NCBI GenBank assembly: GCA_002887195.1
Contig: PJAB01000005.1
Location: forward strand, 1 to 64,000
Length of the DNA stretch: 64,000 nucleotides
Reading direction: 5' to 3'
DNA from: Chrysochromulina parva
Lineage: Eukaryota > Haptophyta > Prymnesiales > Chrysochromulinaceae
The translations under genes and the position numbers were made by a program. The stretch's first letter is position 1, and each line of letters begins with the position of its first letter. Below are positions 13,461 through 41,740 of this stretch, in pieces. The notes below the pieces were generated by a model that ran no database searches, was not told the origin of the DNA, and saw nothing but the letters and a program-made list of their open reading frames with translations.

Positions 13461-16400
13461 ATGCTATGCACGGACGGGCGTCAGCGTCTGCGCCACGCAA
13501 GGATGCGCGCCACAGCGGAGACCGCGTCCTTCTGCGCGTACGAGGTGGAGGAAGTGCTGCGCCTCCATCCGGGTGTGGCCGACCTTGTGGCTGCGCTGGT
13601 GCCGCATCCTGCTCATCACGGTGCGGTCGTGGGCGTGGCCTACGTACCAGCCAACGCTGCTTGCCATCTGACAGCAGCCGAGCTCAGCGCGTTTGGCAGC
13701 GTTGTGCTGGCACCGTTCATGCTCCCGCAACTGGTGATGCGCTGCCCAACCGAGCTTCCCGCCTCTCGGCCGGAAGTTGCAGAACTGCTCGCTCAGCTGC
13801 GGCCCATGGACGCCTGCCCCACGTCCACGAGCTACGAGCAGCACGTACTGCAGGCACTGCACTCACTTGGGCTTCCGGTCCATCCGGGCGGCGGCCTTGA
13901 AGACGCGCCTTTGATGCAGCTCGGAGTGGACTCTCTCAACACGGGCCGGCTGGTTCAGCTGCTCAACACAGCGCTCGCTCCGCGCCTCGCGCTGCGCCCG
14001 ACGGTGGTGTTCGACCACCCGACCATCCGCCAGCTCGCCAGCTACATCCACCACGAGCTGTGCGCACCGTCGGAGCTGCCTCGGCGCGTCGAGGGCACCC
14101 GCGCTACGGCACCGCCACACGCGATGCGCCTCGCTGGCTCCGCCATGCGCTTGCCCGGAGGCGTGACGCGCGCGGCGAGCCTTCAAGAGCTCTGCGCGAG
14201 CGCTGGCGATGGCATGCAGCAGCGCCCGACCGGCCGCGCAGCCGCTGCGCTCTCGAGCTTCGACGAGCGCATGCAGTCGGCGCCTCTGACGGCCGCTAGC
14301 TACGGCGGCTACGTGTACGGCGCCGAATACTTCGACGCCGCGAGCTTTGTGATCCCGGCCGGCGAGGTGTGGGAGATGGACCCGCAGCAGCGACTCCTAC
14401 TCGAGCTCGGCTATGCATCCCTCCACGACGCTGGTCAGCGCCGCGATCGGCTGCTCGGCTGCCGAGCGGCCGTCTTCGTCGGACTGATGAATGCGGACTT
14501 TGCTCTGCTCGCAGACTTAACTGCGAGGAGGAGGAGCAGCACATTGGGTGCAGGCAGCAGCGGCTACGGCAGCAGCAGTGGCAGCGTGTACGCCGCGACC
14601 GGTTCGCAGGGCTCCGTCGCGTCCGGCCGTCTCTCGTTCGTGCTAGGCATGCAGGGCCCAGCCGCCACCATCGACACCGCCTGCTCTTCCTCTCTGATGG
14701 CGCTGCATCTGGCACGTATCAGCTGCGAGCGCGCCACCGCTGTGGCACACGACCGTCACCCGCAGCCTTTGGCCGCCCTGGTGGCCGCCGCCAACCTGAT
14801 CTTGGTGCCCAACACGACGCTCATGTTCGCGCGTGCGGGCATGCTCTCCGCGGACGGCCGTTGCAAGACCTTCGACGCGCGTGCGAACGGGTACGCGCGC
14901 TCCGAGGCCATCGGGGCGGTGGCGGTGGAGGAGGCTGGAGGAGCCGAACATTTGGTGCTGGGCGGCGGGATCCTCCTCCACGAGGGCAGTCGCTGCTTCA
15001 TCGGGAGCAGCGCTGCCCATGCAGATGGCAAGAGTGCCAGCCTCACCGCCCCGAACGGCACGTCTCAGGCGCGCTTAGTGCGCGAGTGCCTCGGGGCCGC
15101 GGGGCTCACGTTGCTGCCGCAGGTCGAGACGCATGGCACAGGGACGGCACTGGGCGACCCGACTGAGGCTGGCGGTTTGGAGAGAGCGCTTGGCGCGACC
15201 GCTCCCATACTTGGCAGCCTCAAGGCGAATCTGGGCCATGCTGAGCCGTCCGCAGCGCTCGCCTCCATTCTGATGGTTCGTATGGCGCTCCACCAGCTCG
15301 CTGCTGTGGGGAATGGGAATGCTCAGCTGCGCGTGTGCAACGTGATGGTCGATCCGGCACTCCGTGGCATGAGGGCGCAGCTGCCCACGCAACGGCTGGC
15401 TGCGAGCGCACGCGCCAGGCACATCGGCGTCTCCTCCTTTGGATACAGTGGCACCATCGCCCATGTCGTGCTTCTGTGCGACGCGACGGCGTGGCTTGGA
15501 AAGCGTCACGGCACGCGGCCGCCATGCTTACGCTTTCGGCGGCGCGCGTTCCCGTGGTGGCCAGAGGCCGCACCGCCGAGCGCGCCGACCGAGCGTCCGG
15601 CCGCTGTCCGGACGACTTCGCCTTTCGCGCGCGCCACTTGCGGTCTCCTCGGAGCTTCCCCCCCACCACCTCTAGCAGACCATTTGCCGAGCGTTCCCGC
15701 TCCGCTGCCACCTCCAACGATGACTTCACCTTTGGTCGAGCAGCTCGCACTTCAAGCCGAGGCCTCAGCAGAGCTCTCCCTCTTGGCGCTCGGCGCGCTC
15801 GACACGCGCGGGCGCGAGCGAGGTCGCGATCTCGGTACGCTCGTCCGGGGTGATTGCCTCTTGATGACCTCTGATGACCTCTGATGGCCTCCCTCATCAG
15901 GTACGCTCGTCCGGCTGCTCTTCGATGAGAACACTGGCGTGGCGGTGCTGGAGCTCGCTGATCCGGCCCGCTTCAACACGATGAGCTGGCCCTTGGGTGA
16001 CGATATGCATCGCGCTGTCAACTTCTTGCGCGCACAGCCAGCGCTGAGAGCGGTGTGTTGGCAAGCCGCCGGGCGTGTCTTCTGCGCGGGCGCCTCGCCG
16101 CACACGCCTGGCGCGCCCACCTCCCTTGCCGGCCTGGCGCGCTTCATCTTTGATTACAAGGTGCTCGGGTTCGTCGAGCTAGCCAACTTGCCCGTGCCGG
16201 TCGTGTGCGCCGCGCACGGCGCCCTCGTCGGCGGCGGCGTGGCAATGTTCTTGCAGGCCGACGCACGCCTTGCCGAGAGCGAGGCCAGCTTTCAGCACGG
16301 GAATCTGTCTCGGGGCGTGTGCCCTGTGGCAGGCTTTAGCCGTAGCCTCAAAGCCATCGTCGGCACTGAGCGAGCTCTGGCCTTCTACTTGATGGATCAA

Positions 16401-19400
16401 CCCATCAGTGCCACGGCAGCAATGCAACTTGGGCTCGTGCATGAAGTCTGCACCGGTGTGACGTCGACCAAGCGACGCGCCGAGCAACTGTGCCACCTTC
16501 TGGTGACTCGCGGTCGAGCGTCAGACCTCGTCGCCTTGCGCCTTGCGACTGATGTGGAGTTGCTCGCTCGTGAAGTGGTCCTTCACACCGAGTGCCTGCT
16601 CGTCAACGGTGGCCTCCAACTGGCGCGTTCGATGGACTCCGGGCGCGTGCTCGATGGCATCGGCTCTTCGGTGGAGGCCAAAGTGATGCCAGTTCCGGCT
16701 CCGCTGCGCTCGCGCCATGCCGCAACTGCTCGCGACCACGTGGACTTTTGCATGGCGTGGAGCCCTCCCGCTTCCACATGCTGGGATGCATCGCCTGCAC
16801 AGGCGACGCTCGGTACGGCGCTCCGTGGAGCTCGGCAGCCAGTGGTGGCGCTGTGCCACGCGTCGGACGGCGTGCAGCGATGGACTGAGACGAGGCGCCT
16901 CGGCCTCATCCGAGTGGAGGGCGAAGCGGCTGAGCTGGCGATGGAGGCGCTGCGCCTTCAACGAAATCGGACTGCCCCCGCCACGAACCCTTCCAAGGCC
17001 GCTACTACCGCACGACCAGCTTCGGCAAGGGGCCAAGCGCCGATCCAGGCAGCCATCGTGGAACAATCAGGGGTCGTCGTACTCACTCTGCCCCGCGTCG
17101 CCTTCAATGTGGAGTCCATGTTGGCGTCCATTGCTTGGGTGGGCGCGGCGCTACGAGCGGTCGTCATCCACTTTGGCAACGAGTCAGCGGTTTCGCCGCT
17201 CGATGGCATGCGGCCCTCAGCACGCGACATCTTGCGTGTGCAGGACGCCATGGCGGCGCTGCACTCGTTTGGCGTACCCATCGTCTGCTCCGCCGACACA
17301 GAGCTCGACGGGCTCGCAAAGATTGTTTGGGAAGCCGCCGACTTTCGGATCGGATCCCCCCATAAGAACGCGTTTCAGGCGCAGCGGCAGGGCCTCCTGA
17401 CTCAAGTCCAACCAGCGGGCAAGAGCACCATGCATGCCGCAGTCGAGCGTGCCACGTGGTTGGCGCAGCATGCGGCGATCGGGCTCAAATGCATGCTAAG
17501 CCTCACTAGGGATCCTCCCTCTCCCACCCGCTCGATGGCGAGCGAGCGGTATCTGATGGCGAGCGAGCGGTATTTGATGGCGTTCCCGACCGGCAGCGGT
17601 CCCGAGTGCAACTTGCTCCTTGGCATGCTGTCCGCGTGCGCCGAGAGCAGAGTCCCACGGCTTCCTCGGAAGATGAGCACGAGTCCTTCAGTAGTCCCAG
17701 CCATCCTGCGCTCTCTGCGCCCCTCGAAGCCGTGCGCAGCCGGCGCCAAGACGGCGCGATTCGGCAGTGTGCGCGCCGTCGAGGTCTATGTGCCGCGCCA
17801 CTGCGTGCGCGCTGCTGGATGGGCAAGCGCGTCGAGGGCCAGCCTAGAAGGATCCACAATCGGCAGCAGCCTCGAAGGTTTGATGGAATGCTACAGTGGG
17901 TGCGGCGAGGACGAGGATGTGGTCTCCATGGCGCTGACCGCACTCCACCGGCTGATGCGCACCCAAAACCTGTCGCCCGAGCAGATTGGGTATTTGTGCG
18001 TAGGCTCGCAGACGGCCCTAGATCGGAGTAAGGGGATCAAGTCTGAGCTCATGGCTTTGCTCGAGTGTGGCGGCCAGGCTAGTGTAGAGGGTGTGGACGT
18101 CTACACCTGCCCTGGGCAGGAGATGGCCGCGCTTCAAGGATGCTTCCACTGGATCCAAGGAGCGCATTGGGACGGGCGATTTGCTGTGGCCGTCTGCTCG
18201 GACCAAACCGGCCCGGGCGGTGCGATGGCCTGCGCGGTACTCGTGGGACCTGCACTCTCCGAAAGGAGTCTCCCGCGCCTCGAACTACCCTGGGAGCTGC
18301 CATGCGCTCAATGGATGCCCATTCCCGAGGCGCGTCTCGAATGCGAGCTGGCGTCACAGCTCACGTTGATCGTACGTGTCGGCCCGAGGGTGTGTGCAGC
18401 GCGAGTCGCGAGCGCGGCACAGCGTATCGATGGTCAGCTGCTTCGGGCGCTCGATGCTCGAACTCCGCTCTCTGCCAGAGCTTACCTAGCCCTCTGCAGC
18501 AGAGGCAACGAGGGCCGTTTCGGGCGCGCCACTAGGGCGTTGCTCGGCTTCCCGCGCGACGCCTTCTCGCTCCGAGAGGTCAGCGCCCCACCGCGATCGA
18601 GCGCCCTGATGGCGCAGCCTTGCGAGGCGGCGAGCCGCCCCGCGCGCGTGTACGCGTACCATGGGATGGCATGCTTGCAGTACGTTACTCGGCCGCTTAC
18701 ATCACCGGCACGAAGGCTACTCGATCGCGATGAGGACCTGCAAGCGGTGTTGTCCAGCTTGCTTGGGGGTAGCAGCGAGCCAGACCCCGTGGCCACATCC
18801 AAGGCATCAGACGCTATGGCCGCCGTGCGCGAGGCCGTGGAGGTGCTTTTGCCCGGCATTAGTGCGGACCTTCCTTTCATGGAAGCCGGCATCGACTCGC
18901 TTGGAGCAGTTGAGCTGCGCAACCAGTTGATGGCACGGCTTGGCGACGGCGATCTGCTGCCGGAGACGGTCGTGTTCGACTTTCCCACCCTGCGGCAGCT
19001 GGAGCAGCACGTGCAGCAGCAGCAGCAGCAGGATCATGCGCGACAGCCGGCACCGAGAGAGTCGCATAGGTCATTGCACTCCATCCTCGCGCTTCTCAAC
19101 AGTGTGAGCCCGACAGTTGCGAGCCATCAAACGCAGGGCGTGCTGCCTGGCGCAATCGTCTCGGGGGTCAGCTGCAAGCTGCCAGGGTCCGTTGTCTCGT
19201 CGATTGCATTGCTCGAGGTTGCTGTCACCGGCCACGATGTAGTGCGTCAGGTGCCGCAGTCACGCTGGGAGGCACACCATCTTCCAGACTGGGTGGATGA
19301 GATGACCAGCCGGCGCACATGGCACGGGGCCTTCATGGTCGGTGCGGAGCTCTTTGACGCGGAGCGCTTTGACATCTCGGCTCGGGAAGCGCAGGCGACC

Positions 19401-22400
19401 GATCCCCAGCAGCGGCTCGTCTTGGAGATGAGCTACGAAGCGCTGCATGCTTCTGGCAAGCGCAAGCCAGAGCTTCTCGGGAGCTCAACAGGCGTCGCTT
19501 TGGGGATCTGCTGGAACGAATTCGTGCAAGTCCTCGAGCACAGCCCTCTGGGCCGAAGCGTCTACGCTGCAACTGGCGCAGCGCTTTCGATTGCCTCGGG
19601 CCGCGTCTCGTATGCACTTGGGCTGCACGGCCCGTGCATCTCGATTGAGACGGCGTGCTCGGCATCGCTCGTGGCATGCGGTTCGGCGCTCTCCGGCGTC
19701 ATCCAAGAGAATTGCGAGATGCACGTGGCCGCGGGAGTGAGCATGATGTTGCTCCAGTCGACTTCGGTGAGCATGGCCATTGCGGGCATGACATCGATCA
19801 AGGGGCGGTGCCACACATTTGATCGACGTGCGGACGGCTTTGTACGGGGAGAGGGGTGCTGTGCGCTGCTTCTCGTCGCGCGGTGCAAGCAGCCACCGGA
19901 GCCCTCAAACACAAACTTACCAACCATGCAAAGAGTCTCCGTTCGTCAAGATGGGCGAAGCGCGAGTTTGACGGCACCCAACGGCCAGGCGCAGTTGGGG
20001 CTGCTGCAGGCGGCACACGGTACTGGCACCACAGCCGCCTCGCTGTCTGTGGTCGAGACACATGGCACAGGCACCCCTCTTGGCGATCCAATCGAGGTGG
20101 GCTCAGTCGCCGCGTTCGTGCGCTCTCAGCGCGCCGATGGCGCACTCACTCCGAGTGGCATTAAGGCCAATCTCGGTCACACCGAAGCGACCGCTGGCAT
20201 GGCAGGGCTGGCATCGCTGCTCATCAGGCTCAACGGGCAGGCTCCTCCGAATGCGCAGCTCCGCGGACTGAACCCCCACGTGGCAGGAGCGCTGCGAGGC
20301 ACGAAGTGTGCTTTCGTGGTACAATCGGCCGTCGAGCGCGAGCAATCCGGAGGTGTGAGCTCGTTTGGGTACAGCGGCACGATTGCGCACGCGGTGCTCC
20401 AGCGCAGTGATTCGGGCGGGAGGAGCCACCACGTGACGCTTTCGCCGCTCACATATGTTCGGCGCTCCTACGGCTGGCGTGAGCAGCCACTTTCGCTTGG
20501 GCTGCGACACGTGTCATCCTCAGGTGAGACGCACCTGTTCCGCGCGGCCGTTGCCGGCCCGCTGCTCTCTGCTGTGGCCGATCACGTGGTGCAAGGTCGC
20601 ATCATCTTCCCTGGCTCGGGATACCTCGAGCTGGCACGCGCAGCAGCAAGTGTCGCTCTCTCAAAGTCGACTGCTCCGGCACTGTGTGACGTCGTCTTCC
20701 TGCAGCCGCTTGGCATCGAGGCGAGTGGCGTGCATCTCGACTGCAAGGTCGCAGGGGGCCGTTTTGAGGCGTGCAGCGGCGAGGTTGTCGCTGGTGGCAT
20801 GCTTATGGATGCGGCAGTACACTGCTCGGGTATCATGCGAGTATGCTCATATGACGAGAACAGGGGCTGGTTTGATCACGCGCTGGCTCGTGCTCACGTC
20901 GGTGCTCGCGCTTTCGAGATGAGCTCTTTGTACGACAGGTTCGATGCGATTGGCTTGCAGTACGGCCCCGGATTCCGCACTCTGGATCGGGCATGGGTCG
21001 AAGGCCATGGGCTGGCCACCGCTCGTCTTCGGAACCGCTCAGCACAGCCAGCTGGACACGTGCACCCGGCTGATCTGGATGGCGCGCTCTCCTTGACCAG
21101 TCTGGTCTCAGACAGGGGCCACGGCGGGATGCCGCGTTTGCCGTTCTCAGTGGACGAGGCGCGGCTGCATGGAGCCTCTGGCGAATTGTGGGCAGCCGTG
21201 GCGCGTCAAGGAGGCGAGGCAGTATCTGTCTTTCTCAGCTGCCGTGATGGTTCATCGCCGACCCGGCTTGATGGGTTCAAGTCGAGAGTGCTGCGCGCAG
21301 ATGCACTTGCACGGCGAGACCTGTATGTTATCAAGTGGCACAAGCTAGACTCCTCTGCGATGCGTCAGACCGATGGCACCGACGGCGGGATTGCAGTGCT
21401 TGCGACTGGCGCACAGGCATGGACGTCTCGTGCGGCTGCGGCGCAAACGGTTGCAAGTGGGCGTGCCGTGGCGGGAATAAGATGGCACGCCGTGGCGACG
21501 TTGGCGTCCTTGCAGCGGGGGCAGGCGGCGTGCAACGCATTGGCCGCGCTCGATGCTGCGTTTGCGCTGGTGCAGGCTCAAGCCGCCAGCGAAGCGCCAC
21601 CTGCCGTGTGGCTGCTCACGCTGGGCGCACAGCACGCAATGACTCGCATGCCGAGCATCACGCATGCTGGATCGTGGGGTTTGGCGCGAACGGCGCGCGT
21701 AGAGTCGTTGATTGCTGTGCTGTCCATCGATGGGCAAGCGAGGCCAGCGCTTGAGCGTGCAGCATCGCTTCCAGAGCCCGAGGCGGTGCTCATCAACTCG
21801 TCCGCAATCTCAGTTCCTCGGCTGACGGACTTTACGGCCCCACCAGATGGTCCCGTGCGTGTGCACTTGCACTCTCGCGGCGCAATCAGCAACTTGTCCC
21901 TCGAGCGTCAACCGCTCATGCGTGCGGAGAGCAGTGCCGAGGTCAAGCTACGCGTCCGGACTATCGGCCTCAACTTTCGCGATGTTCTCAATGTGCTTGG
22001 AGAGTATCCGGGGGAGCCCGGTCCTCCGGGAGCCGACGTGGCAGGCATCGTGATCGATCCCGGCGTGACACAGTTGCATGTGCGCCACGCGCCTGTCTTT
22101 GGGATGGCTCGTGCGCCCTTGGCGAGCTACGCCTACGCGGATGCCCGGCTTGTCGCCTGCAAGCCAGCGCCACTCTCGTTCGAGCAGTGCTGCACGCTGC
22201 CGGTGACATGGATCACCACACACGTGTCACTCGGGCGCGCCTTGCTGCGTTCGGGCCACAGCCTGGTGGTCCATGCTGCTGCTGGTGGTGTGGGGTTGAA
22301 GAGTCTGGAGTATGCTCAGTGGTTGGGCGTCAGCATCTTGGGCACAGCTGGGCGTCCGCATAAGCACGCGTACGTGCGGTCCATGGGTGCGCGTCTTCTG

Positions 22401-25400
22401 TGCAGCTCGCGCGATGCGTCGGCATTTGCCGCGGGCAGTGCACGCCTGCTCGAGTCGGGACGGTGCCACGCCGTTCTCAACAGCTTGTCCGGCGACTTCA
22501 TCAGCACGTCGTTTGCATGCCTGACCGAGGGTGGCGCCCTCGAGGAGATCGGCAAGCGAAGCATCTGGTCCACGACGCGGCACGTCGCAGCAGCGCCCTG
22601 CACAACGTTTGAGGCGATTGCGCTGGATGCTGAGACGACGAGGCAGCCTTGGTGGACGCAGCGTGTGCTCCTCCTGCTATCGACCCGCGCCAACTCCGGA
22701 GTGGTAGCAAGCCTCCCTCACCGCAGCTTCGACATGCGAAGCCAATACGAGTTTGCGTTCCGCTTCCTCCAAGGCGGCCACCACATAGGCAAGGTAGTGC
22801 TTTGTGAGCCGATGCGGGGAGCTAGTGCGCTCGAAGGCCAATCCAAGACGCAGCTCGTCACTGGCGGCACAAGTGGTCTAGGTCTGCTAACGGCTCGATG
22901 GCTCGCTGGGCGCGGTGCCAAGCGCCTCGCTCTCGCTTCACGCAGCGGCATGCTCGCCCGCACAGGTGACGCGGAGTGGAAGGCCCTGCAGGCCAGCAGC
23001 GCTGATGCGGTTCTTGAGCGGTGTGACACCTCCGACGTATCCCACAATCGGCGGCTTGCATCGGTGCTGCCATCAGTCGGAGGTGTGTGGCACGCAGCTG
23101 GCGTGCTTGCTGACGCCGTGCTGCCTCGACAGGACGCCAGCAGTCTCGTACGCGTGTACGCCCCCAAGGCGCAAGGCGCGTGGAGTCTGCACTCTGCCAT
23201 GCATACGAGGGCCATTGGATCTTTCGTGCTGTTCTCATCGGTGGCGGCGCTGCTAGGTGGCGCAGGCCAGGCGAATTATGCGTCTGCCAATGCATGTCTA
23301 GACTCTCTCTCGGCCTTCCGACGTCGCCACGGCCGTGCTTCACTGAGCGTGCAGTGGGGTGCATGGGCAGAGGTGGGTATGGCAGCACGGGGTGCGGCGA
23401 GCGAGCGGGTGGCGGCGATGTGGAAGGCGACCGCTGGCTTTGGACAGCTTAGCTTGGCACAGGGCTTGGCCGCACTCTCGACATTGTTAGAGGCGAAGAG
23501 CTCGGCAGTGGTTAGCGTCTTGCAAGTGACATGGAGCCGCTTCGTGGGCGGTGGTGCTGTTCCGCCGGCGCTCCTATCCATGCTCATATCTCCCCAAACG
23601 AACCTGAGGAACCTCGCACCCATTTCGGAGATGCATACGCCCAAGGCATCTCGACTCTCGTCGACAGCCCGTGCGGTATCCCTCGAGACGGTGCTCGAGC
23701 TTGTGAAGCAGACAGCGGCTGGCGCAGTCGATGCGGATGCTCCGCTGATGGAGGCGGGCATTGACTCGCTTGGCGCCGTCGAGCTGCGCAATCAACTCCA
23801 GGCTGTGGTGGGCGGTGATGTGCGCCTCTCTAGTACGCTCGTCTTCGACCACCCGACTGCGCGCCAGCTTGCAGAGGTGCTGCGGCCCAAAGCTTCGGAA
23901 TCGAGACGCCCCGATGCACTAACGAGTCAGGCTGATCTTGCTCCATCAATCTTGGCCGTTGGCGGCACGAGCGTATTGATGCCGGAGAATGTGACGTCAT
24001 TTAGTGCGGCGGGGTGCCTTGTGACCTGCGGGCACGATGCCATCGCAGAGGTGCCCGTCGGGCGATGGGATGTTGCTTCAGCGTCCTCGATGCCTGATCC
24101 GATTGGAAGCCGAATGCGATACGGCGGATTCGTGATCGGATGTGAGCTTGCTGACCACCGTGCATTCAACATCTCGGCTGCTGAGGCGGCGGCGATGGAC
24201 CCGCAGCAGAGGCTGCTCCTCGAGCACGGCTACGCCGCCTTGCACGATGCACGCCTCGATCGAGCGAAGCTCGGAGGCAGCTTGAGCGGCGTGTTCCTGG
24301 GGATCTCGGCGACTGACTTTGCCCAGGTGCTGGCTCTGTCGCCAGCAGGTGCGAGCGTGTATGCAGCCACCGGTGCAAGCCTCTCGATTGCCGCTGGCCG
24401 ACTCTCGTATGTGCTAGGGCTGCACGGCCCTTGCGTGTCGTGTGACACGGCTTGCTCTGCCGCCCTGGTGGCGGGCCACGCGGCGCTGAGCGCTTTGAAG
24501 CTGAAAGAGTGTGCCGTGGGCCTTGTGTCTGCAGTGATGCTGATGCTTTCTCCAGGCGCGGGCATGAGCTTTGCGATTGCGGGCATGACATCGGCGCGCG
24601 GTCGGTCGCACTCCTTCGATGCGCGTGCTGACGGTTATGCCCGGGGCGAGGCGTGCGGCGCGGTGGCGCTGCAGCATGTCGACGATGGTTACGCGTCTGT
24701 AAAGGTGCACGGCAGTGCAGTGCGGCAGGACGGTCGATCGGCAAGCCTCACGGCACCCAACGGGCAGGCGCAGCGAGGGCTTCTTGTCGCCTCGTGCTCA
24801 AGTGCCGGAGTCTCACGTGACTTGCTCAGCTTGGTTGAAGCTCATGGCACAGGTACGGAGCTGGGTGATCCCATCGAGGCGGGCGCTCTCGTGGCTGCGA
24901 TGCTTCAAGGTCGCAGGGGATCAGCACCTTTGGCAGCGAGCAGCATCAAAGCCAATGTTGGCCATGCGGAGGCTGCTGCAGGGATGACGGGTATGCTGAA
25001 ACTGGTGCTCGGCTTGCAGGCAGGGATGGCCGCGCCAAATGCGCAGCTCCGTGTGCTCAACCCTCACGTGCACGCCTGTCTGCATGGCTACGCCGATGGG
25101 GTGCTGCCAGTGCAAGCGGCGCGGCTACTTGCGAGTGAGATGGGCGGCGTGAGCTCATTTGGATACAGTGGCACGATTGCCCATGCGGTGGTCGGCCATC
25201 TCGTCGCAAGGGTTCCCGTGCCACCGCCGACCCACCTCTTGTACCGCCGTGTGGTGTTCGCATGGCAACAACGCTCGGTGGCTCCTTCAACGGCAAGCCA
25301 GGAATTGAGCCGAGGATCCCCTCCCGGAGCTGACCTTTATGACCAGCTCATCAGCCTTGTGCGTGCCATGAGTTGGAGTGACCAGCTCGACACGACCGTC

Positions 25401-31400: not shown

Positions 31401-34400
31401 GTGTGAGCTCCTTTGGATACAGCGGCACCATCGCGCATGCCGTACTCTTTGGCAGCATGCCCCCACCTGGTCAGAGGCCGGTTCATCTCACCTTCCGAAG
31501 GCGAGCGTTTCCATGCAGCCAGACGTCCGAGCGCGAGGCCGCCCTCCTCCAGGAGTCTTCCGGGAGCAAAGACAGGCTACCATGGCTCTATAGCATGCAA
31601 TGGAGCTGCGCATCCGAGCTTGCCGAGCTGAAACCTGTCGGGGCGTCGATTCTCGTAATAGGGCCATCCAACGCGCTGCCTACGCATCCCAATAGGCTCG
31701 CCAACGCATCTGCGTGTGATGCATGCCTGCTCTATGCCCCGCGCTCCGCGTTGGCTGTTCACGATCTTGGGCTGCTCGAATGTGTGCTTTCGTTGCTGCA
31801 AGTGTTCCAAACGAATCAGCATGCACCCCCTCTATGGCTATGCACCCTCGGAACTCAGCTCGAATGCTCGAGGAGCACACATGCTGGCCTGTGGGGTCTG
31901 GCGCGGTCTGCCCGAGCGGAGCTTGCGAGCTTGCGCCTCGGGTGCCTGGATGCTCCTCTCCAACAAGCGATGCCTCTCGCGGGCTACGAGCACCTGCAGC
32001 TGCCCGGAGGCCACATCGACGGACTGAAGCAGGCGTTCTCGTTCGAACCCGAGGCTTGCTTCGCTTCGGGTACGATGCACGTTCCCCGGCTTGTGCACCT
32101 GTCCGAGTTCCCAAGGTGCACGCTAGTGGGGCTGAACAGCCTGAGGCAGGAGTTGATCGCACACGTCACCGCCTCGGCGGCAAAGATAGACTTGCAGCAG
32201 CTGATGCGCTCGTATTCGATGCTGATCGCCCTCTGTAACCAGTACATCTCGGACGCAATGAGTAGTAGCCTGAGGCTCGACTCGCCTCTGTGGCATCACC
32301 GCTTGCTGCGCGCGTGGCTTGCCACGCAGCATCCAACGTCCATGTTATCCAAGGCTCGCGCCCTTGCAGCCGCCAAGGAAGAAGGATCGGCTGAGCTTGC
32401 TTTGGCCGTCCATTGCGGTGAACGCCTCGTCGACGCGTTGAACTGCACGATCCCGTATCAGGAGTTGCTCTTCCCCGGTGGATCGATGGAGATGTTGAGG
32501 CCCGTGTACGAGGACGCGACGATCAGCCAGTTTTACAATGGCTGCATGCAGGCTGTGCTGCAGGCCGTCCTCAAACGCCAACCAAGGCCGCAGCCGATGG
32601 TGGCGCTGGAGGTGGGCGCCGGGACGGGCGGCACTACATCTGTCCTCTTGCCTATCCTCAATGGCCGCTGCGAGCGCTACGTGTTCACGGACGTCTCTCG
32701 CGTGTTCTTGGTCCAGGCGCAAACTCGCTTTGCAGCCTTCTCCTTTGTCCAGTACTCCTTGCTCAACATCGATGCAGACCCACGCCGGCAGGGCTTTGCT
32801 AGCGCTCAATTCGACTTGCTGATCGCCACCAACTGTCTCCATGCCACGCCTCTCATCCGCACCACACTCTGCCACTGCCACCAACTCCTCCAGCCGGCGG
32901 GATTGATGGTCGTGAACGAGGCTCTCACGACCGATGCGTTCACGCAGATGACGTTCGGACTGACAGACGGCTGGTGGCTTTTCCACGAAAGCCGAGACCC
33001 GGAACGGCTTGGTCAATCCAGCCCCATGCTCAATTGGAGGCAGTGGGAAGGGCTTCTCAGGGACACAGGATTTCGTCAAAGCCACTGCATGCAAGGCGGC
33101 GGCGCTCTCCGGGGCCATGCGGTCATCGTAGCAGAAGCTTCCGCGGCCCACATAGCTGCAGACGCCCGTGCAACTCGCGGGGGGATTCGTGTCATCACGG
33201 GCGGGTTGGGCGGTCTTGGCCTGATCGCTGCACGAGTGATTTGGGACACGGTGGCGCCAAGCAGCCTGGTGCTCATGTCTCGATCGGGCCGATTGTGTGA
33301 CACAACCGGTGCTGCCCTGTGGATGGGCAGGTGCCGCGCAGTGCGAGTCACGGCGTGCGACGTCGCAGACGACACGAACCTTCGCACATCTCTGATTCAA
33401 CTCATGTCTCCGTCCAAACGGCTGAATGGAGTCACTCATCTCGCCTCCGCGTTTTCCTCGGGCCAGCTAGGAGCGTGGCAATCAAACGCTCTCCAAGCCA
33501 TGTACGGCCCCAAAGTTCATGCGGCTCAAACACTGCACGCGGCGTTGCGAGGCACCAAGCTGGATGATTTCGGCCTCTGTGGGTCTGCTGCGAGCGTGTT
33601 GGACTTTTACTCGAAGCATCAGGCACCCTACGCTGCGGCGAACAGCGCCATAGCCTCTCTCGCCACCTTCAGAAGAGGTGAGGGGCTCAAGAGCACTAGC
33701 ATCGCGTGGGGTGCCTTGGCGACGACGGCCGGCGATCAGAAGGACACTTCGTTTGGCTCTCTCAGCCGCCTGAACGGTCTGGAACTCATCGATCACGCGC
33801 TCGTCTGCACCGTCCTCGCACGGTCGCTCGTTTGCAACGAGAACGTCGCAGTGCTCCAGGCTCACTGGTCTACAGTCATCGCATCCCACCGCAGTGGATA
33901 CCTTCACTCGCTCACTGCACTGCACAGAGCCCCCCTTCCTTTGCTCCCCGTCTTAAGGTCGGTGTCGGTGACGAGAATGCCAGCATTGAGCCTTCAGAGC
34001 ATTCTTCAAATGGTCATGAACAGCACGAGCGCTGCGATTGAACCTGATACACCTCTGATGGAAGGCGGAATGGATTCCCTCGCCGTCGTGCATCTTCGCA
34101 ATGAGCTGCAACGTGCTGTGGGGACCGAACGCAGCCTCCCGCCCACTCTTGCAATCGATTATCCTACCGTGCGTACGCTATTCGAGTATCTAGTCCCGCA
34201 GCAGACCCATGCAGAGCCCATCATGGCACCGTCTAGAGTTTCTAGCCCTCGATCCTCAACCGTCGCCGGGGTGCGCGGTGTGAGCTCAGCTCTTCCTGGG
34301 GGCGCTACCTCCCGAGATGCATTGTGGATGCAAAGCGCCGGCGGTGTCGATTCGATCTCATACCCACCCCCAACACGACCAGAGCAGTCTGATGGCTTTC

Positions 34401-37400
34401 CGGTGGGCTTGCTTGGCTCCATCACGCTCTTCGATAACTCCGCCTTTAAAATTTCGGCTGCCGAGGCAACGCTCATGGATCCTATTCAGCGCCTGCACCT
34501 CGAACGGGCATATGAGGCTTTCTCGCGGAGCGAGAGCTCACACTGCGTGGCGTCGCACCGTGATATCGGCGTCTTTGTTGGCATAGATAAGCTCGACTTC
34601 GTTGACGTCTTGGCCTCACTTCCCGTGAGTGCTTTTGAAGTCACATCTAGCGGGCTGCCAATTGCTGCAGGTCGGGTGTCATACGTGCTTGGTTTGCAAG
34701 GGCCGTGCGTGGCGAACAACACCGCGTGTGCGTCGGCCTTGGTTGCCGTGCATTCTGCACTGTCCGCCTTGCAGCGACAGGAGTGCTCCGGAGCTCTCGC
34801 TTCGGGTCTGAACCTCATCCTCGTGCCAAGTGTGACGATCGCCTTCGCCCGAGCTGGCATGATCTCTCTGTCTGGCCGCTGTTTCACCTTCGACCAGCGA
34901 GCGGATGGCATGGGAAGGGGCGAGGCATGCTCGACCGTGCTCCTCGAAGATGCCGAGGTGCAAACGAGCGTGAGTGGGGCCATGGTTCGGCAGGATGGAC
35001 GTAGCGCAAGCCTCACGGCGCCCAATGGGCCTGCACAACTTGGTTTGTTCAATGCCGTAATGAGCGCGGCTTCGGTTGGCATCAACGGGCCAGGTTGGTA
35101 CGAGGCACATGGGACGGGCACCAAGCTCGGCGACCCCATAGAAATGCGCTCGTACAGTGCCGCTGTGGCTGGCCGAGGTTGTGTATCCGTCGGATCGCTC
35201 AAGGCCACCACAGGGCACACGGAGGGTGCGTCTGGACTCCCGGGGCTTTTGCGAGCTGCCCTTACACTCGGCACGAGGACGACGTTTCCAAACGCACAGC
35301 TCCGTGTAGTGAGCTCTCACGTGGCTGCAGTCCTGAGCCAAGCCGTGTGTTTGCCAGTGCAAGCTGGGCCCCTTTGTACTGAGGGGGTCGCTATGGTGAG
35401 TGCATTTGGTCTCACTGGAACGATTGCAAGCGCAGTCCTGGCTCGTCATGGCTCCGGAGCTGATGACAGGGCGTGGAACCGAATTTCATATCGACGCCGC
35501 GCATTTCCATGGCTTGGTGACTCTGGCGATAGATTTGGCAAGCAGCGTACTGTAGGAGCCGGTGCATCGGCTACATACACTGCGTGCTGGACGATAGACT
35601 CTGAGCGTACACCTCTGCCTCCCGTCGTCGCCGTTCTCGTCGTTGGTTCAACTAAGTGCGGCTCAGCCTTTGTGACAGCACGTGCCCCGAGCACGGTGGC
35701 CGTGCTGCTTCGTCAACACACGACGCGGGCGTCGCATGAGATCCGCGAGCTGGGGCTTGTGCTAGCGCTCGCTCAGAAGGTCTCACGCGAGCGACTGAGC
35801 TTGCTTGTTCTGAGTGGCTCGACCCACGGTGGAGCGGTGAGCTTGGCACGCGTCGTGCGGCTCGAGCTGACGGCGCTCACGGTGCGTAGCGTCGCTGCAT
35901 CGGAAGGTGCCAAGACACAAGCCGTCGCTCGTGCGTTGTTGCATATGGGCAATGCTGAGGCGGAGGTGTCGTGGAGCGGCGGCGGCACGCGGCTCGTGTC
36001 TCGTCTTCGGAAGAACGTCGCGCACAGCAGTGGCCGTCAAGATGCGATGAGGAGCAGCGGGTCGTATGTGATCACGGGCGGGCTCGGAGGGCTGGGAGTG
36101 CGAGCGGCTGGGCTGCTGTTGAAGCACGGCGCGCGGCGTGTGGTGCTCTCGTCGCGCAGCTGCAGGCTGAGCGCGGCGGCGGTGGGAGTGATGGCAGAAG
36201 CTTGCGTGGTGAGCTGCGACGCTGCATGCGGCGCCCAGATTCGAGCGTTGCTGCAGTACGAGCCGACGAGCGGCGTGTTGCACGCAGCAGGCGAGAACGC
36301 GACGGGGTTGGTGAGCGACGTGACGCTCGGCGGCATGATCCACGTCGGCGCCGCCAAAGCCGTCGGCGCGTGGCACTTGCACTGCGGCTCGGCATCGACG
36401 CCTCTGGAGTGCATGGTTTTCTTCTCGTCGGTGGGCTCCGGCCTTTCGAACGTTGGGCAAGCGAGCTACGCCGCAGCAAACGGCAGCCTTGACGGTCTCG
36501 CACTCTGTCGGCGGAAGATCGGAGTTGTGTCGCTCGCTGTGCAGTGGCCGATGGTTGGGGGCGCTGGAATGGGCGCTGCTGGGTACGCTCTGCTCGCATC
36601 GCGTAAGATGTCGATGGTGGGCATGTGCGGGATCTCGCTTGAAGAGTACGCAGCGTGCCTCGCGGCGCAGCTGAGCGTGTGCGATCGTGGGCTTGAGCGG
36701 AGCGTGCAGCTCGTGCATCGGTCCGAGGTGCGAGAGCTGCTGAGCGACCTGTCGGATGCGTCGGAGCGTCGCTTCGAAGAGCTCGCGGCGTACGAGCGCC
36801 GTAATGAGCGTGACCAGAGCTCTGCGTTGGCAGCGCCGGCATCGCGATCATCATTCGCAGAGAGTGTTGGCGCGCTGCCTGTGAGCGAGCGGCGGGCGCA
36901 TGCGGAAGCAGCCGTGTTGCGGCTTGTGGAAGCGCTGGTGCCGGGTGAGCGGGTGGCGCTGAGAGCGGAGTCACCGCTGATGGAGGTGGGTATCGACTCG
37001 CTGGCGGCGACGGAGCTTGCATCGCGGCTGCGCGCTCTGGCAGGAGTGCCTTTATCTGCGACGCTCATCTTTGAGCATCCAACGGCGCGAGCGGTGGCAG
37101 CTCACGTGCTTGATCAGCTGGGGGAGGCGCGTGCTACGTCTGTTGGCAGGGTGCCGAAGCTGGCGAGCGCTGGTGGTGTCGAGATCAGGGTTGTGAGCAG
37201 TTCTGGCCGTTGGCCCGGCGGATGCAGCAGTGAAGCGGCCTGCGCGCAGCTGACGAGTGCGCTGGGCGACGCGGTGGGCAGCGTCCCTGTCGCACGGTGG
37301 GTACTGTCTCTCGCAGTGGACGTCAAAGAGCTCACGAACGTGCAGGCTTCGTGCGTCCTTCATGGCGGCTTCCTCCAAGGCGCGCACCACTTCGACGAGC

Positions 37401-40400
37401 GAGCTTTTGAGATCTCGACGGAGGAGGCGTATGTGATGGATCCTCAGCAGCGTCTGCTGCTTGAGCATGGATACACCGCTCTGCACGGCGCTTGGCACCG
37501 TCGATCTTCTCTCTTGGGAGCCGAGTCTGGGGTCTTTCTCGGCATCGAGCGACCGGATTGGATCTTCGCTCAGCCACTCAAAGCTCGTGCTTCCACGTAT
37601 GCGATGACAGGTGACAATGTCTCTGTCGCGGCCGGACGGCTGTGCTTTGTCCTCGGGCTGCAGGGTCCGTGCTCGAGCATAGACACGGCATGCGCATCGG
37701 CACTGACGGCGGCGCACTGGGCTTCGTTCGCGGTCAAGGGAGGCGATTGCACCGATGCACTCGCGCTCGCGGTAAGCCTGAAGCTCGTCCCACATGGTAC
37801 GCTTGGCTCGGCCGCAGCAGGAATGCTTTCAGTGGACGGGCGTTGCAAGACGCTGGATGCGCGCGCCAATGGCTACGTTCGCTCCGAGGGCGTGGGTGCG
37901 CTCGTCATGCAGTGTGGCGGCGAAACAGGTTTCTTGTTCAGCGGCAGCGCGGTTCGAAGTGATGGGAGGTCCGCGAGTCTCACGGCGCCAAACGGCTCGG
38001 CGCAGCGTCTGTTGCTGCTTGCGGCCCTCGGCCGTTCGAATGCTTCCCTCGACGAGTGGAGTTATGTTGAAGCGCACGGAACCGGTACGGCGCTCGGGGA
38101 CCCGACGGAGGTAGGTGCCATAGCCGCGGTCCATGCGACGCGCCCCTTACCTTTCGTGGTAGGTGCGGTCAAGGCGAGTGTCGGACACGCCGAAGCGGCC
38201 GCGGGGCAGCTCGGTCTGCTACAGCTGCAGCAGGCTCTGCAGGGCGGTGCCGCTGGCAACGCTCAGTTGCGACAGCTCAATCCGCACGTGAGTGCTCACC
38301 TGCATGGCTCCGCTTCGCGCCACGTGCTGCCCGCACAGAGGGTAGCCACTCGTAGCGCCATGGGGGGCACGAGCTCCTTCGGCTACAGTGGGACGATCGC
38401 GCACGTTGTTCTTGTCCTTAGGTCCAGTTCGAAGCCTCTGCCTCGCCCGGCAAACGGGCTCCGATTCCGGCGGAGGTCGTTCTCGCTGTCTGGCGAAGCC
38501 CTGCCACCAGCGGACCCAAGCTGGAAGGCGCTTGTGCAGCCGTCGCTAGGGATCTGGGATGCACCTCTGATCTCTTCGGGCCTGACATCTGTCGGTGCTG
38601 TTCGTCTCGCCGCTCGCCTTCGCGCCTTGACCAATTACACCTTGTCACCTACTCTCGTCTTCGAATGTCCCACAGCACACGCCATCTCAGATCACCTCCA
38701 TCACCTCGGGGTCACGATGAGGGCCGATGTGCTGCTGGGAGTGGTAGACGATGTCCTGAACCGGCGACCGACGCCATCTCCGAGGGCATCTCCGAGGGCA
38801 TCTCCGGAGATGAGGGGGAGATCCGGACCCCTCACCCCATCCCCACCCGGCACCTCCATCTTGCATGCGATCCCCGATGACTTTGTGCTCCACGAGGAGC
38901 CCGAGGATGTAACCACCTTGCTGCTGCAGCGTCCCCTGCCAGCCTTGGGCCCTCACAACCCCCCCGGCCCATCCAGCCGACCCACTGGGCCCATCCAGAG
39001 CCCCTACCTCATCGATACTCTCAAGCACCCCAAGGAATATTGGTACGCCGTCCCCACCGACGTCGCGGCCGCCCAATGGTGGTTCAGAGCACATTGCAGC
39101 CTTCGAACGGTGGTCGCCTGTGATGAAACCGGGCGCTGGCGCTGGAATGGGCAGCGCAGCGAAGACGACCTGCCGCAGTTTGAGTCGCCTCGGCAGCTGG
39201 ACGACCTCTCGAATCTCGTCTATTTTTGCCACGGGGACAGGATGCTCCACTTGCACCACTTGCTCTTCGACGGGTTCGCCCTTCGCTTCCTTTCCGATCA
39301 AACGGGCACCTGGCACACGGCCGAAGCTGACCACCTAGTGTCGATGGAGTACCATCAGTACCGGACTGACGAGATGCTCGGCGACGTCTTTCGGGTGGTT
39401 TCGACGCCCCTTTTCCGAGCCGAAATGATCGCAGCCAATCGGGCATGCAATTGCTACAAGGCCGAGAGTCTCGTGGTCCCACCCGGCATGCCCGCACTCG
39501 TGAATCGGATCAGCAAGGAGAACAGAGTGCCGCTGGCCGAGGCCTTTTACGCAACGGTCATCGTGCTGACGCTCGAAGCTCTCGGTGTGCGGCTCGGGCC
39601 ATTCTTGCTTACGGACAACTGCCGCGACTCGAGCAACAGCAAGATCTTTGGGATGGTTCAACGGGAGTATGGTGCGATCTTCGAGCACGAGCCGGCCCTG
39701 CCGTTTGACGAGAATGTTCGGCGCGCTCTGAAGACCATGCAGTGCCTGGCACCCATCTATCGCCGTCTCTTTGCCGAGTATGCCTTTGGAGAATTCGGAG
39801 AGCTCTACGACGAGAATACGTACGATGGAGTGCAGCTCAACTTCCTCGGCTACGACGGAGTGGAGCGGCCAGACGGCGACATACTCGGGCCGTCGCCGAT
39901 CGGGGACCACCTCCCGTGGGAGAACTGCTATGAAACTGCCATGGAAGCTGCCATGGAGGAGGCGTCAGGACCCTTCGACTTCTCCTCCAACCTGTACTGC
40001 CACCTTCAAGGCGGGGAGCTCTCGGTCTGCGGGCGGGAAACCAGCGTCCTGTGGTTTGTGCAGACAGTGTGGCCCTTGCTCCTCGACCACGCCGAGCCCC
40101 CGCCATCCTCTGCCCCCCCGCCACCCTCTGAGGCTGGATCATCGTCTGAGTGGTTCGGTCCCCCGGCCTCATCCCCTCCGCCATCGCTGCCGCCGTCGCC
40201 GCCTCCGGCCTCGCCCGTCTCATCGCCCCGGCTATCCTCCGAGCCATCTTCCCTGCAGCCGGCTCTCGCATTGCCCGCGCGCGCGAGCCCAATGCCCACG
40301 ACGGCGCTCTCGAGGCCTGCTGCACGCCCTATCCGACCGTACGACGTCGCAGGCGTGTCACCCGAGCTTTCTCCGAGCCTGCTGGCTGCGTACCAAGCCG

Positions 40401-41740
40401 CCCATGTGCAGTCGAAAGCCTACGTGGCGAGCGCGCGGCCGAGCCTGAGCGATAACCGGAACATTGCTAACTTCTGCCTCCCGTTCAAGGAGGCATGCCA
40501 TCCAATCGTGGGCGCGGCGGCCGCGGCGGGAAGCTGCCACGTCATCGACGCCGATGGGCACCGGGTCATTGACCTCGCGGGTGGCTTCGGCGCGGTCGTC
40601 TACGGTCACAATCCACCATTCGTGAGGGATGCCGTGTTGGCCATGGTTCGCAACGACCAATGGGCCCTTGGTTGGGAGCATGGTGTGACCCGAAGGAATG
40701 CTGCAACGGTCTGCCGCCTCACCGGCATGGAGAGCTGTGTCTTCGTGACCACGGGCTCCGAGGCCACCACACTCGCCTACCGCCTCTGCCGGATCCACAC
40801 CGGGCGCTCGAAGGTAGTCGTCTTCGAGAACTCGTACCACGGCCACTTTGACGCCTTCCTCGGCTTTCCAGCCGACCCGAGCGCGCCGGGTTTGTGCTCG
40901 CCTGTGGCACCGGGCATCCCAGCCTCCTACACGCAGGATCTCATCGTCTTACCTTATGACACGGAGGCCTCGCTCGCGTACATCGACGAGCACGCCGCGA
41001 AGATTGCGGGAGTCTTTTGCGAGGCGGTGCAGAACCGCAATCCCGGCTTGGTTCCCAAGCCCTTCCTCGAAGCCCTGCGCCAGCTCACTGAGCGCCGGGG
41101 CATCGTCTTAGTGTTCGACGAGGTCGTCACAGGCTTCCGGGTCGCCGCGGGCGGGGTCCAGGAGAAACTTGGCATCCGCTGCGACCTCTCGTGCTATGGC
41201 AAGGCTCTTGGAGGGGGCTTTCCTGTGGGCTGCGTGGCCGGGCCTCGCAACATCTTGGCGCGGGTGAGCGGTGGCAACGAGCTTCGTGGCGGCGACGCCC
41301 ACGACGACGCGCGATCCTCGGTGCCCACGACGACCTATTTGGAGACGACCTATTTTGAGGGTACGTTTCATAAGCACCCACTTGCCATGGCTGCTGTGGG
41401 CGCCGTGCTGGATCACATCGTGGCTCACGGAGACGCGCTCTTCCCGGAGCTCGATCGCTTAGCGGAGCACCTAGCCTCGAGTCTCAATGCCTGGTGGGCT
41501 CAGCAGGGGCTCGCCCTGCGCATCGACCACTTCGGCTCGATGATTCGATTCCAGGTGCCCCCGCGGCTCAATCTCGTCTTCTTTCAGACTCTCCTCCAGA
41601 ATGGGGTCTACTGTTGGGAGGGGCGGACATGCTTCCTCACCACGGCGCACACGCAAGAGGATGTGGACGAGATCATCGCGGCGTGCAAACGGACGTCTCA
41701 CCAGCTAGCCGAGGAGGGAATCGCGATCCCAGCGAGCTGA
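13461..41740 (+). CDS. giant hybrid trans-AT-type PKS-NRPS megasynthase (three exons)
   Basis: Exons 13461-15834, 15901-26388 and 26475-41740 join in frame across two GT-AG introns. This gives about 9,375 residues from the first ATG (a second ATG is at 13503). Domain order: AL C-lobe remnant-ACP; KS1-ECH-ECH*-HMGS*-ACP; KS2-DH-ER-KR-ACP; KS3-ACP-AMT1; C-A-PCP; KS4-cMT-KR-ACP; KS5-KR-ACP; KS6-ACP; C-like-AMT2-stop. All six KSs keep the catalytic Cys and both His. Eight carrier domains keep the phosphopantetheine Ser. There is no AT (no GHSxG) and no TE, reductase or terminal cyclisation C. Known assembly-line logic predicts a mixed polyketide-peptide amine, with malonyl supplied by a separate acyltransferase. 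Six KSs share GTIAH or a variant where most bacterial KSs have GTNAH, which argues for an algal lineage rather than recent bacterial transfer. The product is unknown. The starter domain is truncated, and release is unexplained. Confidence 0.9.
13521..14070 (+). other. loading region: acyl-ligase C-lobe remnant and ACP1
   Basis: EVEEVLRLHPGVADLVAAL resembles the C-terminal lobe of AMP-binding ligases, but the large N-lobe with the ATP motifs is absent. It is followed by an ACP with GVDSL at about 13923. The 311 bp upstream cannot hold the missing 400 or so residues. Confidence 0.6.
14130..19020 (+). other. module 1: KS1-ECH-ECH*-HMGS-like*-ACP2
   Basis: KS1 spans about 14130-15480 with DTACSSS (Cys codon 14682), HGTGT and NLGH. 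A crotonase-fold ECH domain spans about 15915-16600 with both oxyanion-hole segments (FCAGAS, HGALVGGG). A second, degenerate ECH-like domain is at about 17050-17520 and lacks the Gly-rich loop. An HMG-CoA-synthase-like domain (about 17760-18690) has VEVYVPR, SKGIKSELM and HWDGRFAVAVC. Counting from SK and WDGR, its usual Glu is Gln (VGSQT) and the usual Cys position is Pro, with a Cys one residue earlier. ACP2 has GIDSL at about 18888. Confidence 0.75.
15835..15900 (+). other. intron 1 of the megasynthase, introner-like
   Basis: 66 bp, GT...CAG, phase 1. The 14 bases GTACGCTCGTCCGG at 15835-15848 (start of intron) are repeated perfectly at 15901-15914 (start of exon 2). The interior is GACCTCTGAT-type repeats and ends GGCCTCCCTCATCAG. 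Removing it links KS1 to the ECH domain in frame. Confidence 0.9.
19140..23890 (+). other. module 2: KS2-DH-ER-KR-ACP3 (fully reducing)
   Basis: KS2 has ETACSAS (Cys codon 19656). DH has HVVQGRIIFPG (HxxxGxxxxP) and HPADLDGALS, with Ser where Gln/His is usual. A structural half-KR (WGLARTARVE) precedes ER, which has GLNFRDVLNVLG and HAAAGGVGL for NADPH. KR has TGGTSGLG and the Lys/Ser/Tyr/Asn set ending NYASANACLD. ACP3 has GIDSL near 23758. A saturated two-carbon unit is predicted. Confidence 0.85.
23950..26960 (+). other. module 3: KS3-ACP4-aminotransferase 1
   Basis: KS3 has DTACSAA (Cys codon 24453). ACP4 has GIDSL near 25414. AMT1 is a class III PLP aminotransferase of the glutamate-1-semialdehyde type: TTGTEATTLAARLAR, SYHGHFDGF, IFDEVTTGLR (PLP-binding Asp) and GKALGAGFPVG (Schiff-base Lys). 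The intron at 26389 interrupts the Lys motif. KS-ACP-AMT ahead of a C domain is the mycosubtilin/iturin order for making a beta-amino acyl chain. Confidence 0.85.
26389..26474 (+). other. intron 2 of the megasynthase, introner-like
   Basis: 86 bp, GTAGCA...CATCAG, phase 1. Splicing restores GKALGA-G-FPVGA of the aminotransferase. The interior is five CTGATTGCC-type units and it ends GATTGCCTCCCTCATCAG, almost the same as intron 1. No clean direct duplication flanks it; CTCCGACC just inside the donor is inverted relative to GGTCGGAG just after the acceptor. Confidence 0.9.
27010..30140 (+). other. module 4: NRPS C-A-PCP
   Basis: The C domain has HHVAVDA (HHxxxDG with Ala for Gly). The A domain has FTSGSTGRPKGVM (A3), FDVSVYNIF (A4), NYYGPTE (A5), YRTGD (A7), GRMDFQVKLRGQRIELGEIE (A8) and TASDKIDRNKLP with the A10 Lys. 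It is therefore probably active. By motif counting the first pocket residues are Asp, Val and Tyr; I did not derive the full code. The PCP has GLNSL near 30014, Ser kept. Confidence 0.9.
30200..34200 (+). other. module 5: KS4-cMT-KR-ACP5
   Basis: KS4 has DTACSTA (Cys codon 30713). A half-KR (HAGLWGLARSARAEL) precedes a C-methyltransferase with EVGAGTGGTTSVLLP (SAM binding, about 32610). KR has TGGLGGLG and a shortened active-site segment with YAAAN. ACP5 has GMDSL near 34068. An alpha-methyl, beta-hydroxy unit is predicted. Confidence 0.85.
34260..37120 (+). other. module 6: KS5-KR-ACP6
   Basis: KS5 is the most divergent: MDPIQRL for MDPQQRL, NNTACAS around Cys codon 34727 and GLTGTIAS for GYSGTIAH; catalytic Cys, HGTGT and TTGH remain. 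KR has TGGLGGLG and FSSVGSGLSNVGQASYAAAN. ACP6 has GIDSL near 36990. Confidence 0.85.
37180..38710 (+). other. module 7: KS6-ACP7 (non-reducing)
   Basis: KS6 has DTACASA (Cys codon 37691), HGTGT and SVGH. ACP7 is weak: PLISSGLTSVGAV keeps Ser but has Thr in place of the usual Asp, so pantetheinylation should be tested. No reductive domain is present, so a beta-keto thioester would remain here. Confidence 0.75.
38990..41740 (+). other. terminal unit: divergent C-like domain and aminotransferase 2
   Basis: About 39000-40090 encodes a domain whose only strong signature is HHLLFDG (HHxxxDG at 39254), pointing to the condensation / CoA-dependent acyltransferase superfamily; the rest is unlike the C domain of module 4. 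A Pro/Ser linker (about 40090-40350) follows. Then comes a complete class III aminotransferase: TTGSEATTLAYRL, SYHGHFDAF, VFDEVVTGFR, GKALGGGFPVG. The protein ends 40 or so residues after it, at TGA 41738. No TE or reductase is present. Confidence 0.8.

Follow-up and report, generated by a model that had tools for sequence, protein, structure and literature searches.

The window analysed here is a 64,000-nt stretch of contig PJAB01000005.1 of the freshwater haptophyte alga Chrysochromulina parva, which carries on its + strand a very long megasynthase coding region. An ORF scan gave three open frames (13383-15884, 15885-26405 and 26459-41740), and removal of two introns (15835-15900 and 26389-26474) joined them into one frame of 9,375 residues with a single terminal stop. 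The two in-frame splices between three long exons predicted in a sequence-only reading were thereby borne out, and the exon edges it gave (15834/15901 and 26388/26475) were correct. The features are as follows.

13461..41740, +: whole coding region; exons 13461-15834, 15901-26388 and 26475-41740; 9,375 residues
13461, +: predicted start codon, first in-frame ATG
13542..13769, +: adenylation C-terminal lid (AMP-binding_C) without core; Pfam 22.3 bits, below the cut-off of 24.5
13899..14048, +: ACP1; Pfam
14124..15476, +: KS1; Pfam
15835..15900, +: intron 1; 66 nt, GT-AG, decamer repeats; 15-nt direct repeat 15834-15848 / 15900-15914
15927..16505, +: ECH (crotonase); Pfam
17019..17726, +: putative second ECH-like stretch, weakly conserved; conjectured from its position and from relatives
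17769..18251, +: HMGS-like domain; Pfam HMG_CoA_synt_N; Gln in place of the catalytic Glu, changed Cys motif
18800..18980 (edges approximate), +: ACP2; motif AGIDSL at 18885
19152..20402, +: KS2; Pfam
20508..21308, +: DH; Pfam and HxxxGxxxxP motif
22287..22802, +: ER, zinc-binding dehydrogenase part; Pfam 31.7 bits against a cut-off of 31.8; nucleotide-binding motif
22848..23372, +: KR1; Pfam
23715..23879, +: ACP3; Pfam
23964..25205, +: KS3; Pfam
25380..25457, +: ACP4; motif LGIDSL; weak in Pfam (E 0.15)
25659..26962 (3' edge approximate), +: AMT1, class III aminotransferase interrupted by intron 2
26389..26474, +: intron 2; 86 nt, GT-AG, decamer repeats; ends CCCTCATCAG
27029..28342, +: condensation domain; Pfam, HHVAVDA
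28424..29413, +: adenylation domain; Pfam
29936..30133, +: PCP; Pfam
30200..31453, +: KS4; Pfam
32606..32905, +: C-methyltransferase; Pfam
33185..33721, +: KR2; Pfam
33990..34150 (edges approximate), +: ACP5; motif GGMDSL at 34064
34244..35452, +: KS5; Pfam
36059..36556, +: KR3; Pfam
36959..37108, +: ACP6; Pfam
37166..38428, +: KS6; Pfam
38549..38698, +: ACP7; Pfam
38855..40162, +: HHxxxDG domain; HHLLFDG at 39254; condensation-like by motif only
40523..41620, +: class III aminotransferase AMT2, C-terminal; Pfam

The gene is already known and has been in print since 2015-2020. The accessible part of O'Neill 2020 (PMC7073580) names PJAB01000005, PJAB01000008, PJAB01001513 and PJAB01001579 as PKS contigs of C. 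parva, and its Fig. 4b presents a hybrid NRPS-PKS on PJAB01000005 in C. parva and on JWZX01003258 in C. tobinii, which has, like the window, two aminotransferases and a methyltransferase, with ECH and HCS in the domain key of the legend. In C. tobin, three contiguous ORFs make up the locus according to the accessible text of Hovde 2015 (PMC4580454), where it is presented as the first PKS-NRPS hybrid from an alga; in Fig. 8 of that paper (PKS 1-3) a stop lies between ORFs 1 and 2 and ORF 3 is frameshifted, matching the frames of the window, and the legend key comprises AMP binding, HT (crotonase), condensation, adenylation and an 'AT' that is amine-transferring according to the text. Hovde 2015 has three ORFs and lists no HMGS in that legend, whereas in the window two introns join the ORFs into one. 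The gene is one of the large haptophyte PKSs of unknown product already in print, and the details added here on the PKS itself are modest; its intron family is the better and newest lead.

Comparison shows the three exons to form a single predicted gene. At the first junction, the relative P0012 (2,809 residues; 60% identity in the best local alignment, which covers 26% of the query) continues as one uninterrupted frame through the break, spanning the adenylation lid, KS1, ECH, the HMGS-like domain and KS2 up to DH, with GRDLGSLVR at the break compared to GRDLGTLVR in the spliced window. An alternative donor of intron 1 at 15850 is also in frame (51 nt, five extra residues); the donor at 15835 is favoured because the 66-nt intron gives a length equal to that of P0012. 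At the second junction, AMT1 after splicing (KALGAGFPVGAVGG) runs gap-free against AMT2 (KALGGGFPVGCVAG), all 16 gap positions of this alignment (46% identity, 415 columns) lying elsewhere. Exons 2 and 3 have 99% identical database counterparts, P0010 and P0013, which represent clusters with 35 and 76 members, respectively, indicating that the frames are not due to chance. P0010 (99%) and P0011 (91%) start after intron 1 and P0011 stops where intron 2 starts; judged from these frame ends, the introns appear to be common to the window and P0010/P0011.

It could be argued that the locus encodes three separate genes with interacting proteins, as the accessible text of Hovde 2015 (PMC4580454) has it for C. 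tobin, and the stop and the frameshift that separate the three ORFs would fit such an arrangement. However, P0012 crosses the first break in one frame and matches on either side of it, the second break falls inside an aminotransferase that is whole only once spliced, both gaps are GT-AG, and the 3' end of the second gap occurs at 2,887 genome places with up to two mismatches, so that three genes are very improbable. Bacterial contamination was also rejected, given the introns, the eukaryotic neighbours (a CDPK-like kinase and a kinase frame) and the counterparts in clusters of 35 and 76 sequences. We are therefore confident, though short of certain, that the window holds one nuclear gene for a single-chain, AT-less modular PKS-NRPS with the module scheme proposed below. 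The earlier claim of a single gene gains support from the P0012 read-through and the ungapped AMT1/AMT2 alignment, and that of a PKS-NRPS in a eukaryotic nuclear gene is likewise supported. It can be tested whether a single transcript covers the 'three ORFs' of the earlier publication.

An HMM search of the joined protein recovered in Pfam every domain that had been named from the sequence (six KSs, C, A, PCP, two Aminotran_3, ECH, HMG_CoA_synt_N, a methyltransferase, DH, ER and three KRs) and no AT. The earlier inventory had missed the N-terminal adenylation lid, the possible second ECH-like stretch, ACP4 and the HHxxxDG domain. The order in the first half is A-lid, ACP, KS1, ECH, HMGS-like, ACP, KS2, DH, ER, KR, ACP, KS3, (ACP) and AMT1, followed in the second half by C, A, PCP, KS4, cMT, KR, ACP, KS5, KR, ACP, KS6, ACP, the HHxxxDG domain and AMT2. 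A condensation-adenylation-carrier unit thus stands in line with KS modules in Pfam, making the protein a PKS-NRPS hybrid. Eight carriers were counted, seven by motif and ACP7 by Pfam, in a motif scan that also gave three matches inside other domains. AMT1 directly follows ACP4, and the HHxxxDG domain stands between ACP7 and AMT2. An NCBIfam search, which took in AMT2 and not AMT1, placed AMT2 nearest to glutamate-1-semialdehyde aminomutase models.

The N-terminal lid gave weak matches to the C-termini of acyl-CoA synthetase models, and the same segment is found near the start of P0012; the adenylation lid alone remains at the starter end in both proteins. No AMP-binding core for it was found on the contig (10 upstream frames; 14 of 28 candidates scored), and a lost adenylation core upstream was rejected, the directly upstream frame being an antisense protein kinase. 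One ECH is firm in Pfam; the stretch at 17019-17726 had no match above chance in Pfam, NCBIfam and PDB searches, and the same searches gave neither a family match nor a credible structure match for the HHxxxDG domain. Single-sequence structure models of the two were uninformative (mean pLDDT 42 and 36, respectively). Pfam found no thioesterase in the joined protein, and Rfam gave no match on the window.

Module chemistry, as well as the AT partner and the release step, was assigned from knowledge of the families. Module 1 (ACP1, KS1, ECH, the second ECH-like stretch, the HMGS-like domain and ACP2) would start the chain, and module 2 (KS2-DH-ER-KR-ACP3) would install a fully reduced unit. In module 3 (KS3-ACP4-AMT1) a beta-ketone may be converted into a beta-amine, after which C-A-PCP would add one amino acid. 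Module 4 (KS4-cMT-KR-ACP5) is predicted to provide an alpha-methyl beta-hydroxy unit and module 5 (KS5-KR-ACP6) a beta-hydroxy unit, while KS6-ACP7 and AMT2 may supply the last, aminated unit. The chain yielded no thioesterase match, and release or transfer is therefore probably the role of the HHxxxDG domain beside AMT2, a candidate by motif only. Malonyl groups would be delivered by a free-standing acyltransferase, for which the protein encoded on contig C2179 is a likelier candidate than that on C702.

The proposed third module has a bacterial parallel in the mycosubtilin/iturin synthetase A proteins, which, like the window, place an aminotransferase between a KS-ACP unit and a condensation domain. 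In mycosubtilin, a beta-amino acid is formed before the NRPS step by the order KS-ACP-aminotransferase-C. Unlike the window, these synthetases are bacterial and cis-AT and possess an active N-terminal ligase. A search with the C-terminal part as query (1,176 candidates scored; lengths 0.55-1.75 times the query) returned 46 proteins, one 99% copy and 45 non-self matches, among them P0024, named 'iturin family lipopeptide synthetase A'. All 45 list aminotransferase, KS and condensation domains, with approximately 40-50% of the query covered, and 44 of them list an AT as well, so the closest counterparts in bacteria for this part of the protein are of the cis-AT type.

The HMGS-like domain in module 1 scored 104.9 bits with the eukaryotic model TIGR01833, compared to 30.3, 19.6 and 18.5 bits for the other three matching HMGS models, and shares 39% identity over residues 11-170 of the stretch with the genome's own HMGS on contig C459. 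By eye, Glu, Cys and His motifs are all retained in the C459 enzyme. The general-base Glu of its GTET motif is replaced by Gln in the window (GSQT), with Gln also in P0010 and P0011 and Asn in P0012, and its ACYGG cysteine motif reads TCPGQ in the window, TYPGQ in P0011, where the Cys is lost, and GCAST in P0012. Only the N-terminal HMGS domain was detected in Pfam; a C-terminal one was not found. Among nine further HMGS relatives, drawn from the 8,000 best candidates scored, four (P0002, P0004, P0006 and P0007) keep both the Glu and ACYGG and four (P0001, P0003, P0005 and P0009) have lost the Cys motif, P0008 having no residues there. P0001, named as a Promethearchaeia archaeon MAG fragment, carries an HMGS-like domain with 48% identity over 47% of the query and is probably algal contamination of the archaeal bin.

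The accessible part of O'Neill 2020 (PMC7073580) proposes active beta-branching for two E. huxleyi megasynthases, and an active cassette of this kind might likewise be sought in the ECH/HMGS block of the window. The ECH is strongly conserved to P0012, and P0002, P0004, P0006 and P0007 retain both the Glu and the ACYGG cysteine motif. Against this, the window itself has Gln for Glu and TCPGQ for the cysteine motif, its 91% relative P0011 lacks the Cys, and no C-terminal HMGS domain was matched. In addition, the Cys and both His residues are invariant in all six KSs of the window, so the chain contains no Cys-to-Ser decarboxylating KS. An active cassette here is thus unlikely: loss of the catalytic Glu makes beta-branching doubtful and does not support a working beta-branch cassette. 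The HMGS-like domain is probably catalytically dead, with no beta-branch expected from it, and we read it as a decayed, still conserved copy of a once active haptophyte domain. Given the motifs kept in P0002, P0004, P0006 and P0007, and a sequence upstream in P0002 that by eye resembles the second ECH-like stretch, intact cassettes may exist elsewhere. How branching predicted from HMGS domains in haptophyte megasynthases compares with a reading of the active sites is a testable question.

No AT was detected in the gene. PF00698, run against six frames of the whole genome (45 Mb, 2,199 contigs), gave four matches, none of them on C5, the contig of the window, and the 9,375-residue protein contains no G[HLF]SxG motif; a hidden AT was rejected on the former result. 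Together with the Pfam annotation of the protein, these results bear out the earlier statement that no AT motif occurs anywhere. Two of the four matches lie in frames of 3,162 and 3,015 residues (C921 and C1513, respectively), and two, in frames of 388 and 533 residues (C702 and C2179), are free-standing AT genes in which the GxSxG serine is kept, as judged by eye. The genome search for a free malonyl-CoA acyltransferase suggested in the earlier reading thus yielded C702 and C2179 as candidates. The N-terminal extension of C702, which differs from that of C2179, could in our estimation be a plastid leader. The genome also gave two PPTase matches.

The accessible part of Shelest 2015 (PMC4661987) reports that almost all of approximately 30 multimodular algal PKSs have no AT, and that of Davison 2023 (PMC10366177) describes AT-less multimodular PKSs of C. 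taylorii, all with an adenylation-like N-terminus. The window shares with these the lack of AT in the modules, the single multi-KS chain and the ligase/adenylation-type N-terminus, of which it keeps the lid alone, and goes beyond them in its NRPS module, two aminotransferases and HMGS-like domain. For C. leadbeateri, AT-less PKS contigs with ATs encoded as individual enzymes are reported in the accessible text of PMC12190008. By contrast, O'Neill 2020 (PMC7073580), as far as accessible, states an N-terminal AT for all haptophyte PKSs, a general statement from which the window departs and which does not hold on C5, where no AT match was found. The sequence-only reading had called the system unusual and trans-AT-like as in bacteria. 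It was right in that the gene is AT-less, eukaryotic and nuclear, but AT-less multimodular PKSs are usual in algae, the hybrid was already published for both Chrysochromulina species and the KSs score nearer to bacterial cis-AT enzymes.

KS matches in the genome were found on C5, C8, C1513, C1579 and other contigs; the four numbers given agree with all four PKS contigs that O'Neill 2020 names for C. parva. A profile of the six window KSs was searched against the PDB, and among the best 60 of 149 matches CurL, DEBS and MAS scored 411, 361 and 360 bits, ahead of PksL (326), an 'AT-less polyketide synthase' (322) and PksJ (314). We take CurL and DEBS to be cis-AT and PksL and PksJ to be trans-AT systems; by profile score, the window KSs are nearer to bacterial cis-AT than to bacterial trans-AT enzymes. 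Within the same 60, entry 7zma reached 561 bits, but this score covers two KS stretches, and the single-KS entries 7zmc and 7zm9, also named 'Putative polyketide synthase', scored 284 bits.

A KS tree of 96 rows contains a clade (support 100/100) that unites the six KSs of the window with two from P0012 and two from contig C88, and within which KS1 and KS2 each pair with their P0012 counterpart. Of 12 KS matches elsewhere in the genome, eight entered the tree and four fragments (C1579 twice, C117 and C1031) were left out; KS5 and several genome KSs sit on long branches, which weakens single placements. Three of the eight bacterial rows without an AT (L054, L069 and L075) are among the neighbours of the clade, with weak support (87/71), in a tree that holds no named trans-AT reference. 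Four AT sequences of the alga served to look for an AT within 1.2 kb after the KS at the 80 bacterial loci, and one was present at 68, absent at eight and cut by the contig end at four, in a set drawn by a word search that favours DPQQRL-type KSs. Descent of the KSs from a bacterial trans-AT lineage via horizontal transfer would be consistent with the absent AT, the profile matches to AT-less KS structures and the three neighbours without an AT within 1.2 kb. Nevertheless, it seems improbable in view of the higher scores of CurL, DEBS and MAS among the best 60 of 149, the AT behind the KS at 68 of 80 bacterial loci, even if the search words favour that type, and the fully supported clade of its own formed by the ten KSs of the window, P0012 and C88. 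The two C88 KSs (C88:694-6006; L010 and L012) lie near the end of a 44-kb contig without an AT match and probably belong to a second AT-less PKS, cut off.

Around the gene, the neighbours scanned (TrkH, THUMP, GST and Roadblock, with SNF2/RING just below cut-off) do not make up a biosynthetic cluster. A CDPK-like kinase with EF hands is encoded at 45476-47194 (+).

Both introns of the gene look like members of a genome-wide, introner-like family ending CCCTCATCAGG. Intron 2 ends GATTGCCTCCCTCATCAG, and this string with the following G occurs with up to two mismatches at 1,475 + 1,412 = 2,887 genome places, a count of many copies that refers to the 19-nt 3' end motif; the reversed motif as control gave 0 and 0 places genome-wide. 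A direct repeat of 15 nt is present at the edges of intron 1 and none at intron 2. A flank repeat of at least 10 nt was observed in 15 of 35 distinct copies sampled from fetched loci, mostly chosen for exact motif matches, compared to 2.7% with flanks swapped. Several of the sampled copies are tandem arrays with a period of approximately 65-76 nt, and in these, duplication of the array may account for the repeat lengths. An open-frame comparison for 31 copies gave a weak signal, with mean frames of 624 nt spliced, 404 nt unspliced and 478 nt for a control splice; nine of the 31 gained more than 300 nt on splicing.

We tentatively suggest, at somewhat less than even chances, that an intron-less 28-kb frame was invaded twice by an undescribed introner-like family of thousands of copies and that an active haptophyte HMGS branching domain decayed in place to a non-catalytic but still conserved one; the comparison with P0012 shows gain for intron 1 alone. 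The family so conceived may be marked, at the same tentative level, by a tandem decamer body and a 3' splice site of its own (CCCTCATCAG); its copies would often lie between direct repeats of 10 to more than 20 nt, longer than the duplications of 3-9 bp described for certain other families of introners. No description of this family was found in the accessible introner literature, subscription papers and supplements aside. The accessible part of Gozashti 2022 (PMC9860276) reports introners from a MAG of Chrysochromulina sp. that carry a 5' splice site and have 4-bp duplications, and these are arranged differently. The family may represent intron gain on a genome scale, and one gene, as seen in the window and in P0012, offers alleles with and without the gained intron for comparison.

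Further intron-like sequences were observed elsewhere. At C43:43001-48000 (L115), a tandem array of an intron-like unit with a period of approximately 65-76 nt lies around 2713-2984, its units starting GTCCGCGAGGCTCC (one GTCCGCAAGG) and ending CCCTCATCAG. In the window, two diverged intron 3' end motifs (up to 4 mismatches) are located at 58168 and 58795 (+), within decamer repeats.
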